From Vulcanimicrobiota bacterium (GTDB lineage Bacteria; Vulcanimicrobiota; Vulcanimicrobiia; Eremiobacterales; Eremiobacteraceae): a stretch of 64,000 bases of DNA. Of this stretch, positions 2,821-33,131 are shown piece by piece (the first letter of the stretch is position 1; each line of letters opens with the position of its first letter). The notes under the pieces were generated by a model. The model had not been told where the DNA came from. It did not search any database and saw nothing but the letters and a program-made list of their open reading frames with translations. The position numbers were made by a program, and so were the translations under genes. The stretch lies in assembly GCA_013290125.1 (NCBI GenBank), contig JABCYQ010000013.1, positions 1 to 64,000 on the forward strand, in the 5' to 3' direction.

Positions 2821-5421
2821 TTGGCAATGGTACGGGTCCACGAGCTCGCCAAAGAGCTCAACCTCTCAAGCAAAGATACGATCGCTCTTCTGAGCAAAGT
2901 TGGCATCAGAGCCAGCACGCACATGAGCGTCATCGACGAGCATCGCGCGCGCATCGTGAAGGGCGTGCTTGTCGGCGATTTGGCGCAGGCGGCGAAGTCG
3001 CATAAGCCTGTCGCAAAAAAGGCGACGGCCGGCAACGGCGCGGCCACGGCGACGGCCACGGTTGAAGCACCGCCGCCGCCCAGCGAGCCTACGCGCGACG
3101 CCACCGAGAGCAAGGCTGCAGAACCCCCCGCCAAAGCACCCGAAGCCGCTCCGGCGCCGCCGCCATCGCCCGAGGTTCATAGTCCGGTTGTCCGGCTGCG
3201 CACCGTGGCCACGTCCACGCCTCGACGCGCAACCGTGATGCGCCCCGCGCATCATCCGAAGGTCGTTCCGGCGGCGTCGGCGGATCCGACCGCGCCGATT
3301 CCGATGAACCGGCCGGTGCAGCAGATCATCCAGCAGCAGCCGCGCGTCGGCGTCGGTGTCGGCCCTCGACCCGCTGGTCCGGGTTTCGCGCCGCGTCCAG
3401 GCGGTCCAGGAATGCAAGGGCGACCCATGCCTGGGCGTCCGCTTGGCGGCCCTGGAGGGCGTCCGATTCCCGGACGGCCTGGCAGCCCGCTGCAACCCGG
3501 TACCGGAGCGCCGACGAGTGGGCCGCAACCTGGCGGACGCAAGAAGTCGCGCGAGGAGATGGAGCGCGACCGTAAAGAGCGACAACGCGAGGAACTGCTC
3601 AAGAAGACGCAGCCGCGCCACAAGTCGTCGCAGGCGCCGATGGTCGAACCCGAAGTGCTCAAGGATCTCGAGATCCCTGATCTGATCACGGTGCAGCAAC
3701 TCGCTTCCGCCATGAGCGTCCCCGCTGGTCAAGTCATCGGGCAATTGATCAAGATGGGCACGATGGCCACGATCAATCAGCACGTGCCGCCGGATGTCGC
3801 GTCGCAAGTGGCGCGCCGCTTCGGATTCAACGCGCTTGTCAAAGAGGCAGACGAAGAGACGGTCGAGATCCTCACCGAGTCGGATCCGCCGGGTTCACTC
3901 ACAACCCGTCCGCCCGTGGTCACGGTACTCGGGCACGTCGACCACGGCAAGACGTCGCTGCTCGACGCCATCCGGTCCACCAAGGTCGCCGCGGGCGAGG
4001 CTGGTGGCATCACGCAGCGCATCGGCGCCTATACCGTCGAGACCAACGACCGCAAGGTCACGTTCATCGACACGCCCGGTCACGAAGCGTTCACCGAGAT
4101 GCGCGCGCGCGGCGCGAAAGTCACCGACGTCGCGATTCTCGTCGTGGCTGCCGACGACGGCGTCATGCCGCAGACGATCGAAGCGATGAACCACGCGAAG
4201 GCGGCCGGAGTTCCGATCGTCGTCGCGGTCAACAAAGTGGACAAGCCGAACGCAAATATCGACCGCGTGAAGCAACAGCTGTCGGAATACGGCCTTACTC
4301 CCGAAGATTGGGGCGGCACGACGCAGTTCATCCCCGTGTCCGCGAAGCTGAAGACGGGCATCGACGAGCTCCTCGAGATGGTGCTGCTCAATGCCGATCT
4401 GCAGGATCTCAAGGCGAACAAGAACCGGCGCGCACAGGGTGTGATCATCGAAGCGCGGCTTGACCGGTCGCGCGGGCCGGTCGCGACCGCGTTGGTAAAA
4501 AACGGCACGCTGCGGGTCGGCGACATCGCCGTCGTCGGCTCGACATTCGGCAAAGTACGTGCGCTCTTCGACGACTCAGGCGCCGCGATCAAGCGCGCGG
4601 GACCGTCGATCGCCGCCGAGATCATGGGTCTGTCAGACGTCCCCGCGGCAGGCGACGTGCTGGAGGTCGTCTCCGACGAACGCGACGCTCGCGAGCTCGC
4701 GGCCAAACGCTCGCAGCGCAAGCGCGAACAGCGCATGGCGAGCGCGCGCCGGCCAGTCACGCTCGACGGCTTCTTGGCGCAGGCCAAAGAAGGCGGCATC
4801 AAAGACCTCAACCTCATCATCAAGGCAGATGCGCAAGGATCCGTGGAGGCGTTGCGATCGCAGCTCGACGGACTTGTCAACGAAGAAGTTCGGACGCGCG
4901 TCATCCACATGGGCGTCGGCGGCATCAACGAGTCAGACGTCATGCTTGCGAGCGCCTCAAACGCGATCATCATCGGCTTTAACATCCGCCCCGATGCCAC
5001 GATCGCGCGCAAGGCCGAGCAAGAAGGCGTGGACGTCCGTTTGTACGATGTCATCTACAACGTCATCGACGAGGTCAAAGCGGCGATGACCGGGATGCTC
5101 AAACCGCAGGAACGCGAAGTCGTGCTCGGCCAGGCCGAGGTGCGCAAGCTGTTCAAGGTCAGCAAAGTGGGCACGATCGCCGGCGCCTACGTTCGCGACG
5201 GGAAGATCACGCGCGATTCGCGCGTCCGTGTGCTGCGCGACAACGTCATCGTCTACGAGGGCAAGCTCAACTCGCTTAAGCGCTTCAAAGACGATGCTCG
5301 CGAAGTCGCGACCGGATACGAGTGCGGTCTGTCGATCGAGAACTTCAACGACCTCAAGGAGGGCGATGTGATCGAAGCCTACATGATGGAGCAGTTCGCG
5401 GCGGTTTCATCGTCGTCGTAG
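2821..5421 (+). CDS. infB: Translation initiation factor IF-2
   Basis: IF-2 is the GTPase that delivers initiator tRNA to the 30S subunit and promotes 50S joining. Residues 1-52 are an IF2N domain. Residues about 60-240 are a Pro/Ala/Gly/Arg-rich linker with PGRP-type repeats, and a second IF2N-like domain lies near 290-340. The G domain has GHVDHGKTS (371-379), DTPGHE (about 417), NKVDKP (about 471) and SAK (about 507). Domains II, III and the C-terminal fMet-tRNA-binding domain follow. Start is TTG at 2821, well placed behind AAAGGA at 2803-2808; ATG at 2827 is the alternative but is spaced too far. The length of 866 aa is within the family range. Confidence 0.97.
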   Translation: MAMVRVHELAKELNLSSKDTIALLSKVGIRASTHMSVIDEHRARIVKGVLVGDLAQAAKSHKPVAKKATAGNGAATATATVEAPPPPSEPTRDATESKAAEPPAKAPEAAPAPPPSPEVHSPVVRLRTVATSTPRRATVMRPAHHPKVVPAASADPTAPIPMNRPVQQIIQQQPRVGVGVGPRPAGPGFAPRPGGPGMQGRPMPGRPLGGPGGRPIPGRPGSPLQPGTGAPTSGPQPGGRKKSREEMERDRKERQREELLKKTQPRHKSSQAPMVEPEVLKDLEIPDLITVQQLASAMSVPAGQVIGQLIKMGTMATINQHVPPDVASQVARRFGFNALVKEADEETVEILTESDPPGSLTTRPPVVTVLGHVDHGKTSLLDAIRSTKVAAGEAGGITQRIGAYTVETNDRKVTFIDTPGHEAFTEMRARGAKVTDVAILVVAADDGVMPQTIEAMNHAKAAGVPIVVAVNKVDKPNANIDRVKQQLSEYGLTPEDWGGTTQFIPVSAKLKTGIDELLEMVLLNADLQDLKANKNRRAQGVIIEARLDRSRGPVATALVKNGTLRVGDIAVVGSTFGKVRALFDDSGAAIKRAGPSIAAEIMGLSDVPAAGDVLEVVSDERDARELAAKRSQRKREQRMASARRPVTLDGFLAQAKEGGIKDLNLIIKADAQGSVEALRSQLDGLVNEEVRTRVIHMGVGGINESDVMLASASNAIIIGFNIRPDATIARKAEQEGVDVRLYDVIYNVIDEVKAAMTGMLKPQEREVVLGQAEVRKLFKVSKVGTIAGAYVRDGKITRDSRVRVLRDNVIVYEGKLNSLKRFKDDAREVATGYECGLSIENFNDLKEGDVIEAYMMEQFAAVSSSS

Positions 5422-29949: not shown

Positions 29950-30056
29950 CTGAAGGGGCCGACTTTACGTCGGCCCACATTACGTTCGCCCGGGCCGATA
30001 TAAAATCGGCCCCTTCAAATAAGACCGGCCCCTTCAAATAAGACCGGCCCCTTCAG
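29950..30056. repeat. Family A double-hairpin repeat with tandemly amplified 3' arm
   Basis: A full unit (CTGAAGGGGCCGACTTTACG to ATCGGCCCCTTCA) is followed by two further copies of a 20-base unit, AATAAGACCGGCCCCTTCA. Three successive CCTTCA arms thus stand next to one another, the only place in the window where the arm is amplified. It occupies most of the gap between the decarboxylase and the MntR-like regulator. Confidence 0.9.
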
Positions 30057-30108
30057 AGAAATTGTAAAGGTCCGCTCTACACCAAATCACGAATTAAGAT
30101 TGGAAACC

Positions 30109-30780
30109 ATGGTTAACAAACAGACGGATCGTTCGCGCGATCGGGCGCGCGAAGATTATCTGAAGGCGATCTATCATCTCAGCGATGGTAGCGCCGTGAA
30201 GGCGGCCGTTCTCGCACGCCATCTTCGCGTTTCACGAGCCTCAGTGAGCAAGATCCGGCGAGTGTTAGAGCACGACGGTCTCATCGGCCGCGCGCGCCGC
30301 CGCGCGGACGCTCTCACGCTGACACGGCGAGGCCTCGGCCTTGCGGTGCGAGTGGTTCGCCGCCACCGGCTCGTCGAGACGTTCCTCTATCGCTCACTCG
30401 GCGTGCCGCTCGAACGCCTTCATCGCGCTGCTGAGAAACTCGAGCATTCGATCTCCGACGACGTAGCGCGGCGACTGTCTGACTTTTTGGGCAATCCAAA
30501 ACGCGATCCGCACGGCCATCCGATTCCAGGCACGGGCAGCGAGAAGCGAGAGCGACGCGAGCTGACCCTGGCCACGGTAGTGCCTGGCACGAAGATCGTC
30601 GTCGTGAGTCTCGACGACGGCGACGAAAAAGTCGTGCGCAAGCTGGACGCGCTCGGCGTCCTGCCGGGGATGCGCGCGACCGTCGTCAGCAATCGCTCGG
30701 GAATCACATTGCGCACGGCGGACCAAGACATCGTCGTTTCGCTGATCGCAGCTGGACGAGTCCGCTGCGTGGCGCGCTGA
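30109..30780 (+). CDS. MntR/DtxR-family metal-dependent repressor (manganese-type ligands)
   Basis: DtxR-family repressors bind DNA when loaded with Fe2+ or Mn2+. Residues 15-75 form a winged helix (EDYLKAIYHL, LRVSRASVSKIRRVLEHDGLI). Residues 76-140 are the dimerisation/metal domain, and residues 155-222 an SH3/FeoA-like domain. Aligned by eye with Bacillus MntR, ligands Asp16, His86, Glu109, Glu112 and His113 (motif EKLEH) are kept, while the position of Glu11 is Lys19. The DtxR-type Met and Cys are absent, so manganese sensing is favoured. ATG at 30109 is preceded by TTGGA; an in-frame TTG at 30100 would add three residues. It is two bases from the transporter gene that it presumably controls. 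Confidence 0.9.
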   Translation: MVNKQTDRSRDRAREDYLKAIYHLSDGSAVKAAVLARHLRVSRASVSKIRRVLEHDGLIGRARRRADALTLTRRGLGLAVRVVRRHRLVETFLYRSLGVPLERLHRAAEKLEHSISDDVARRLSDFLGNPKRDPHGHPIPGTGSEKRERRELTLATVVPGTKIVVVSLDDGDEKVVRKLDALGVLPGMRATVVSNRSGITLRTADQDIVVSLIAAGRVRCVAR

Positions 30781-30782
30781 TC

Positions 30783-32114
30783 GTGGCGACGGCGGCGGCG
30801 ACGGCTCGCGAAGAGGCGCTGCGCGCGCAAGATCGCCGCATCGTTCGCCTCGCCCGGGCTGCCGGTAAGCCGCTGCTCGTCCTTTTACTTCTCGTCGGGC
30901 CCGGCATCTTGGTCATGCTCGGAGAGAATGACGGACCGAGCATGCTCTCGTATGCCACGACCGGCGCGTCGTACGGGGTCGGATTCTTTGTGCCGTTCAT
31001 CTGCCTGACGTTCGTCATGGCATTCGTCGTGCAAGAAATGACCGTCCGCCTTGGCATCGCTACGCAGCGCGGACACGCCGAACTGATATTCGAGCGCTTC
31101 GGCCCCTTCTGGGGTTACTTCGCGATGTTGGACCTGTTCGTCGGCAATGCGCTCACGTTGGTGACCGAATTCATCGCGATTCGCGCCGGTGCCGCCTACT
31201 TCGGGATCTCGCCGTTTGTCGCCGTGCCGATCGGGCTTATGATCGTCATAACCGCGCTCGCCGCGAGGAGATACTTCACGTGGGAGCGCGCGGTCCTCAT
31301 TCTGAGCGCTGCGAATCTGCTCTTCATCCCTGCAGCACTGATGGCGCACCCCGACGCGAGCGCGATCGTACATGCGCTGGGGACGTGGGGTCCGCTGCCC
31401 GGCGGCGTCAACGCGGCGTTCATCGTGCTCGTGCTCGCGAACGTCGGCGCCACTGTAACGCCGTGGATGATCTTCTTTCAACAAAGCGCAGTGGTAGACA
31501 AGGGATTGACCGTCAAAGACCTGCCGCAAGGACGCGCAGACACCGCTATCGGTTCGACCCTCGCGGTGCTCGCTGCGATCGCGACGCTGATCGCGGCGAA
31601 CCCGCTTTTCACGCATCACGTGAATGTCGCGAACTATTCGGGCGGCGCGGATTTCGCCAGCGCTTTGCGGCCATATATAGGCTCAACGGGCGCCGCGCTT
31701 TTCTCGCTTGGGATCATCGAAGCCGGTCTCGTCGCTGCGATGACGATCTCGACGAGCTCGGCGTATGCGTTCGGAGAAGTGCTGCGCCGCGGACACAGCT
31801 TGAATCTTGACTTCGCCACCGGCCGGCCGTTCTATCTTTCGGCGATCATCTCAACTATGGTCGCCGCGGCGCTGGTGCTCATCCCTGGCGCGCCGCTACT
31901 TGCGATGACGCTGACCGTGAACGTTATCGCCACGCTGCTCATGGCGCCGGCGCTGTTGTTCTTGCTGCTGCTCGCGAACGACCGCGAAATCATGGGCGGG
32001 CTCGCCAACCACTGGCGAAGCAATCTCGCCGGCGGTATTATCATCGTCGTGATCGCAGCCATGGGGACGACGTACGGCCTTGTGGTCGTATTCCCAAATC
32101 TGGTGGCGAGATGA
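30783..32114 (+). CDS. Nramp-superfamily divalent metal transporter with non-canonical metal-site motifs
   Basis: An 11-helix protein of 443 aa with SLC11/Nramp organisation. Helix 1 reads GPGILVMLGENDGPSMLSY: Asp50 aligns with the metal-binding Asp of the classical DPGN, but the Asn position is Ser53 and the order is D-G-P-S. Helix 6 reads NVGATVTPWMIFFQQSA where Nramp has MPH, so the soft Met ligand is replaced by Thr226 and the His by Trp228. Such changes are reported for the Nramp-related magnesium transporter branch and would favour hard ions. The MntR-like regulator just upstream points to Mn or Fe regulation. Start GTG at 30783 is two bases from the regulator stop; the stop overlaps a small membrane ORF. 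Confidence 0.88.
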   Translation: MATAAATAREEALRAQDRRIVRLARAAGKPLLVLLLLVGPGILVMLGENDGPSMLSYATTGASYGVGFFVPFICLTFVMAFVVQEMTVRLGIATQRGHAELIFERFGPFWGYFAMLDLFVGNALTLVTEFIAIRAGAAYFGISPFVAVPIGLMIVITALAARRYFTWERAVLILSAANLLFIPAALMAHPDASAIVHALGTWGPLPGGVNAAFIVLVLANVGATVTPWMIFFQQSAVVDKGLTVKDLPQGRADTAIGSTLAVLAAIATLIAANPLFTHHVNVANYSGGADFASALRPYIGSTGAALFSLGIIEAGLVAAMTISTSSAYAFGEVLRRGHSLNLDFATGRPFYLSAIISTMVAAALVLIPGAPLLAMTLTVNVIATLLMAPALLFLLLLANDREIMGGLANHWRSNLAGGIIIVVIAAMGTTYGLVVVFPNLVAR

Positions 32115-32248
32115 TCACGACGAAACCGTATCCGCGACGGAAGCTGGGCGCGGGCACGATCATAGTGCTGTGGGTCTTACGCATTTACGTGCTCATCGCG
32201 GTGCCGCTCGTCGTCTACGCGTTTTTCAGGGCGCTGCACGCGCCATGA
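32111..32248 (+). CDS. 45-residue single-helix membrane protein coupled to the Nramp-like transporter
   Basis: The ATG at 32111 overlaps the transporter stop as ATGA. The product begins with a basic cytoplasmic segment (MITTKPYPRRKLGAG), then one hydrophobic helix (TIIVLWVLRIYVLIAVPLVV) and a short YAFFRALHAP tail. The Arg in the middle of the helix is unusual for a plain membrane anchor and may contact the transporter. The coupling, the charge distribution and the clean open frame support a real gene. It could be an accessory or regulatory subunit of the transporter, comparable in kind with known small proteins that bind metal or ion transporters; this role is inference. It ends 11 bases short of the convergent SDR gene. 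Confidence 0.75.
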   Translation: MITTKPYPRRKLGAGTIIVLWVLRIYVLIAVPLVVYAFFRALHAP

Positions 32249-33062: not shown

Positions 33063-33131
33063 CTGAAGGGGCCGACTTCAGGTCGGCCCACGTTGCGCTT
33101 GCTAGGGCCGATATAAAATCGGCCCCTTCAG
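33063..33131. repeat. Family A double-hairpin repeat, full-length copy
   Basis: CTGAAGGGGCCGACTTCAGG and TCGGCCC, then a CACGTTGCGCTTGCTA spacer, then GGGCCGATATAAAATCGGCCCC and TTCAG. It lies between two divergent genes, the only full-length family A copy not adjoining a 3' end. Confidence 0.88.

Follow-up and report, generated by a model that had tools for sequence, protein, structure and literature searches.

A conserved one-helix protein encoded behind or fused to a clade of Nramp-related transporters is a candidate accessory subunit

Results

A 45-residue membrane peptide closes a metal-regulated transporter operon

In the window, i.e. the whole stretch of 64,000 nucleotides analysed here, a regulator gene, a transporter gene and a very short reading frame form a tight head-to-tail operon (Table 1). 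An earlier note, made from the sequence alone, had placed a small membrane peptide directly behind the transporter, and the frame is indeed found there, its start codon sharing an ATGA with the stop codon of the transporter. The translation reads MITTKPYPRRKLGAGTIIVLWVLRIYVLIAVPLVVYAFFRALHAP and shows the features that had been described, namely a basic N-terminus (K5, R9, R10 and K11) followed by one hydrophobic helix with an arginine, R24, embedded in it. Palindromic repeats of the form GGGCCGA..T.AA.TCGGCCC occur at 13 sites in the window vs 0.03 matches expected, and pairs of repeat hairpins, 36 bp apart, flank the regulator-transporter-peptide operon on both sides (29956-30012 and 33069-33125).

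The transporter matches the Nramp family profile with an E-value of 4e-57 and a score of 194 bits against a gathering cut-off of 29.8, and is thus a member of this family. Its metal-site residues are DGPS in TM1 and ATVT in TM6, which correspond neither to the DxxN (TM1) and A/CxxM (TM6) of canonical MntH/Nramp proteins nor to the DxxG (TM1) and TxxA/T (TM6) of NRMT Mg transporters. The nearest solved relatives are the NRMT/NrmT proteins (EleNRMT, CabNRMT), a likeness that includes PW replacing PH in TM6.

Table 1. Features of the operon and of the small protein in the window
Feature	Position	Strand	Remarks
DtxR/MntR-type metal-dependent regulator with C-terminal FeoA domain, first operon gene	30100..30780	+	PF01325, PF02742, PF04023
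Nramp-related transporter, 443 aa, GTG start, TM1 GENDGPSM, TM6 GATVTPWM	30783..32114	+	PF01566; EleNRMT (7qia) nearest solved structure
Transporter D117 in TM3, candidate partner of R24	31131..31133	+	Invariant only in the helix-bearing clade: 60/60 vs 0/18 in the sister group
ATGA shared by the transporter stop codon and the small-ORF start codon	32111..32114	+	Same -4 offset in 24/85 loci
Small ORF, 45 aa, putative single-TM accessory protein	32111..32248	+	45 codons plus TGA, ATG start; homologues; purifying selection
Hydrophobic helix (approximate), residues 13-39, predicted N-in/C-out	32147..32227	+	K/R bias in 82/84 homologues
LRxY signature in the helix, codons R24 to Y26	32180..32188	+	A1 alignment; kept in fused forms

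The small frame is conserved and under purifying selection

Searching genome contigs with the transporter sequence yielded 80 orthologous loci at 56-76% identity which, together with six loci of the window's own family, give a set of 86 from Eremiobacterota, Acetobacteraceae, Rhizobiales, Acidobacteriota, Verrucomicrobiota and others (depositors' labels). At 85 of these 86 loci (83 of 84 distinct contigs) the transporter is immediately followed by a homologous one-helix ORF, while the sole locus without an adjacent small ORF, L110, has the small gene elsewhere in its genome. Over 24 close pairs of the small ORF the pooled pN is 0.109 vs a pS of 0.458, indicating purifying selection, with omega ranging from 0.03 to 0.47 per pair; between the window and its nearest relative 8/4/16 changes fall on the three codon positions. 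The conserved membrane ORF that the earlier note expected behind Nramp-like genes of related genomes is therefore present, and the two outcomes it named as speaking against itself, a frame that is not conserved or a neutral substitution pattern, are both decided in favour of a gene. On this comparative evidence the frame is a real gene that belongs to a conserved small protein family.

In the A1 alignment of the small proteins two residues are invariant, R24 and Y26, and both lie within the helix. The intramembrane arginine is found in 84 of 84 homologues, and the tyrosine is near-invariant, with a phenylalanine in the distant L195. Sequence change is faster in the small protein than in the transporter. 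With 45 residues the window peptide represents a short form, since most relatives comprise ~56-94 residues with an extra N-terminal motif resembling LEPDQ. Of 85 homologues, 72 carry an L[E/D]..Q-type motif, on the predicted cytoplasmic side, and the LEPDQ-like motif is absent from the window's genus. At locus L071 the peptide frame is conserved after position 4308 and no ATG, GTG or TTG precedes the LEP motif, which could reflect either a non-standard start codon or an error in the assembly.

Searches with 46 homologues against Pfam and NCBIfam, and against the PDB, returned no small-protein family, known families such as KdpF and MgtS included. A match to MctP (one member, E 8e-4) and Pfam matches of one or two members each were discarded as hydrophobic-helix noise. 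The small ORF is also found in Acidithiobacillus caldus and Acidiphilium as well as on the Citrobacter plasmid pPSV. The notion that such a frame is too short for usual annotation applies to the plasmid copy, which is unannotated, but not to relatives that are annotated as hypothetical proteins (WP_014003700.1, WP_011930828.1).

The helix follows one clade of transporters

In a tree of 80 transporter sequences, all 61 helix-bearing transporters, whether split or fused, form one clade (support 0.954). The other group comprises EleNRMT, a Mg/Mn transporter of solved structure, and 17 paralogues, all without helix (weaker support, 0.54). As a negative control we inspected the EleNRMT-type and other paralogues, which yielded no credible helix, either as a fusion or as a small ORF downstream. 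Further evidence for the association comes from 200 sampled genomes of an Acidobacteriota class, in which all 23 genomes with a close transporter orthologue also have the peptide gene. In three Acidobacteria (G172, G178 and G224; loci L160, L183 and L182) both genes are kept and unlinked, the peptide gene being located on another contig or ~5 kb from the transporter on the opposite strand, which implies that the peptide acts in trans.

We propose an LRxY accessory helix family, characterized by an Arg/Tyr signature in a single TM helix preceded by basic residues and by a gene that is beside, fused to or in the same genome as a helix-clade transporter. The window peptide shows both traits. Exceptions to the second are the genomes G266, G282 and G353, in which the peptide gene is present and a close transporter orthologue was not found in the genome; gaps in the draft assemblies may explain these three cases.

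Natural fusions carry the helix behind an additional TM12

When 149 genomes of the window's phylum were searched with a profile of the LRxY helix, there were 26 matches, all of which adjoin or sit within an Nramp-family gene. Fourteen of them extend Nramp-related proteins, mostly ~540-600 residues long, at the C-terminus. These proteins continue from TM11 through an extra TM12 and a linker to W.MPPL..LP...L....R.WL..LR.YL..AV.LVV, in register with the peptide. The natural fusions comprise L129-L142, L159 and L196. Fused Rhodococcus and Methylobacterium proteins are annotated simply as Nramp transporters; the matches in Paraburkholderia and Streptomyces are weaker. A second and more diverged split form, HPLDD..EQK...RMT...LR.YL, is located downstream of other Acidobacteriota paralogues (L188-L193). 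On the tree the 15 fused relatives are monophyletic (support 1.0) and cluster together with the HPLDD split form (0.967). Parsimony on this one tree thus favours a separate gene as the ancestral state and a single later fusion.

We also considered whether the peptide corresponds to TM12 of 12-helix Nramps. We reject this reading, since the fused forms carry both TM12 and the LRxY helix. In Foldseek comparisons, the longer of the alignments with 12-helix structures had an rmsd of ~7-9 Å.

Predicted topology and a candidate Arg-Asp pair in the membrane

Lys/Arg residues are in excess before the helix in nearly all homologues (means of 4.6 before and 0.9 after), and the peptide is therefore predicted to be oriented N-in, C-out. 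As 11-helix Nramps end outside, a C-terminal fusion of an N-in helix would need one more crossing, and the TM12 of the fused forms would provide exactly this.

On the transporter side, V44, M45, H98, W110, G111 and D117 are near-invariant where the helix is present and absent or rare where it is not. In TM3, D117 is about ten residues away from the cytoplasmic end, and R24 sits similarly deep when counted from the basic PRR end of the peptide. Based on the clade specificity of D117 and this matching membrane depth, we propose that an intramembrane Arg24-Asp117 pair probably holds the peptide to the transporter. When columns of the peptide were compared with those of the transporter for covariation (Neff 49), the signal was dominated by the split between clades and, because invariant residues cannot covary, the pair remains a prediction.

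Transporter and peptide of L053 were modelled with AlphaFold2 as an in-frame concatenation in which the stop codon is read as Gly, a modelling device. The model has a pLDDT of 87.7 and a pTM of 0.87, with a disordered linker and values of ~71-85 over the peptide helix. For the natural fusion L137 (AlphaFold2) the corresponding scores are 89.7 and 0.90, with a pLDDT of ~89-94 across the segment that precedes the last helix and across most of that helix. The best solved match of both models is EleNRMT, over which L053 reaches a TM-score of 0.88.

Regulation favours manganese or iron as the probable cargo

The operon had been taken to be metal-regulated, and this is supported by its DtxR/MntR-type regulator and by the related ORF that adjoins the transporter upstream at 48 of the 86 loci. 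No riboswitch, Mg-responsive (M-box) or other, was detected in the window operon, where Rfam matches stay below the gathering score and are mostly repeat hairpins. Given the frequency of the DtxR/MntR-like ORF and the absence of a Mg riboswitch from the window operon, the cargo is probably Mn or Fe rather than Mg. The window transporter differs from EleNRMT, which falls in the helix-less sister group, in having DxxS-AxxT instead of DxxG-TxxA/T, a DtxR-type operon regulator and no detected M-box.

The signature DxxS-AxxT is found in 86 of 86 orthologues; other members of the helix-bearing clade read DAG[A/G] and TT[IV]A. Published signatures are DxxN-A/CxxM (Mn/Fe), DxxN-AxxT (NRAT) and DxxG-TxxA/T (NRMT) (PMC8806188), and DxxS-AxxT differs from all three. 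The NrmT of A. capsulatum rescues Mn transport in B. subtilis and has an MgtE_N gene upstream (PMC4072509). As this arrangement is also seen at the helix-less locus L014, the A. capsulatum protein probably belongs to the sister group. Proteins with MgtE_N, CBS and PRC-barrel domains adjoin Nramp-related genes of both clades (L163:4364-5608, L194:1548-2999 and L014:2833-4167).

Discussion

Coding, conservation, clade-wide association, fusion, the charge bias for orientation and the clade-specific R24 and D117 are all directly supported. We consider it likely, and hold this with good confidence, that the peptide is a constitutive one-helix accessory subunit of an Nramp-related divalent-metal transporter. 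It would be translated from the mRNA of the transporter, immediately after the transporter itself, and insert with its basic PRR end in the cytoplasm. We infer that it packs on the transporter exterior as an extra, thirteenth-like helix, where the Arg24-Asp117 contact may take the form of a salt bridge to TM3. In this position it may stabilise an 11-helix transporter that has no such helix of its own, acting on its scaffold or on its conformational cycle. In one lineage the helix would have been fused to the transporter behind the additional TM12, keeping the helix start in the cytoplasm.

Some data weigh against this assignment. EleNRMT is able to transport on its own, and for A. capsulatum Acp2977, which is functional in B. 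subtilis, no co-expressed small subunit is mentioned (PMC8806188, PMC4072509); EleNRMT falls in the helix-less group in our tree. The lower pLDDT of the helix in the concatenated split model and the faster evolution of the small protein also count against it.

The earlier note had compared the peptide with small proteins that bind and tune ion transporters. The functional link to the transporter holds, binding itself stays a matter of inference, and tuning of the MgtS/MntS type is not the best reading. MgtS, AcrZ and MntS of E. coli resemble the window peptide as small proteins tied to metal or drug transporters (MntS, PMC4361602; AcrZ, PMC7267776). A dissociable regulator of this kind would bind the same transporter, be made or removed according to metal, and alter activity or degradation. 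AcrZ (PMC7267776) sets a precedent for a small one-TM regulator, a metal-responsive regulator heads the operon, and the LEPDQ or HPLDD motif at the N-terminus could serve as a cytoplasmic interaction element. The unlinked peptide genes of some Acidobacteria also leave room for a dissociable role. However, natural fusion fixes a 1:1 stoichiometry, virtually all transporters of the clade have the peptide and are encoded together with it, and the window peptide, without the N-terminal motif, consists of little beyond the helix. We therefore regard this alternative as unlikely.

MgtS, AcrZ and MntS are regulators encoded apart from their transporters, and none of them is known to be fused to a transporter. 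KdpF, a very short one-TM stabilising subunit of the KdpFABC potassium pump, comes from the transporter operon, as does the window peptide, for which a similar role is proposed; KdpF belongs to a different transporter superfamily and does not have the LRxY signature, and no Kdp family is among the profile matches of the 46 homologues. MAP17, solved with human SGLT1/SGLT2 (7yni, 7vsi), provides an architectural precedent as the single-helix partner of a LeuT-fold transporter; the likeness is one of architecture, and its partners are eukaryotic SSS-family carriers. Near-universal retention, restriction to one clade and natural C-terminal fusions place the window peptide nearer to KdpF or MAP17, i.e. 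to a constitutive subunit.

A role in assembly, dimerisation or targeting, where the helix drives oligomerisation or recruits a cytoplasmic partner (a chaperone, a protease or an MgtE_N/CBS-like sensor) and transport itself is independent of it, appears improbable to us. It would fit the conserved short motifs on the variable cytoplasmic N-termini and the MgtE_N/CBS proteins encoded beside some members (L163, L194), but the conserved core is the helix with R24/Y26 rather than the N-terminus, and such neighbours also occur beside helix-less paralogues (L014). That the frame has no protein function and is a by-product of translation coupling or chance, as its mere 45 residues and its being open also upstream of the ATG in the window genome might suggest, is ruled out by a pN far below pS and by the fusions, with an arginine invariant across phyla and conserved unlinked copies leaving it practically no probability.

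In a wider and more tentative interpretation, to which we assign somewhat less than an even chance, the whole clade, spanning Eremiobacterota, Acidobacteriota, Pseudomonadota, Verrucomicrobiota and Actinomycetota, would consist of two-part machines whose obligate helix, whether a separate protein or part of a fusion, is fixed to TM3 through the Arg-Asp pair and needed for transport, the window subclade having a new metal site, DxxS-AxxT.

The Nramp/SLC11 proteins are among the best-studied families of metal transporters. One-helix accessory subunits are a known kind, and for the Nramp/SLC11 superfamily and its relatives none is described in the open-licence full-text literature that we searched. 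If our assignment is true, experiments on purified or heterologously expressed members of the clade would lack a natural component. The invariant arginine and the clade-specific aspartate offer a two-mutation test, and the natural fusions are ready-made stoichiometric constructs for structural work. Hypothetical proteins that are overlooked or left without a name by annotation pipelines would then also gain a function.
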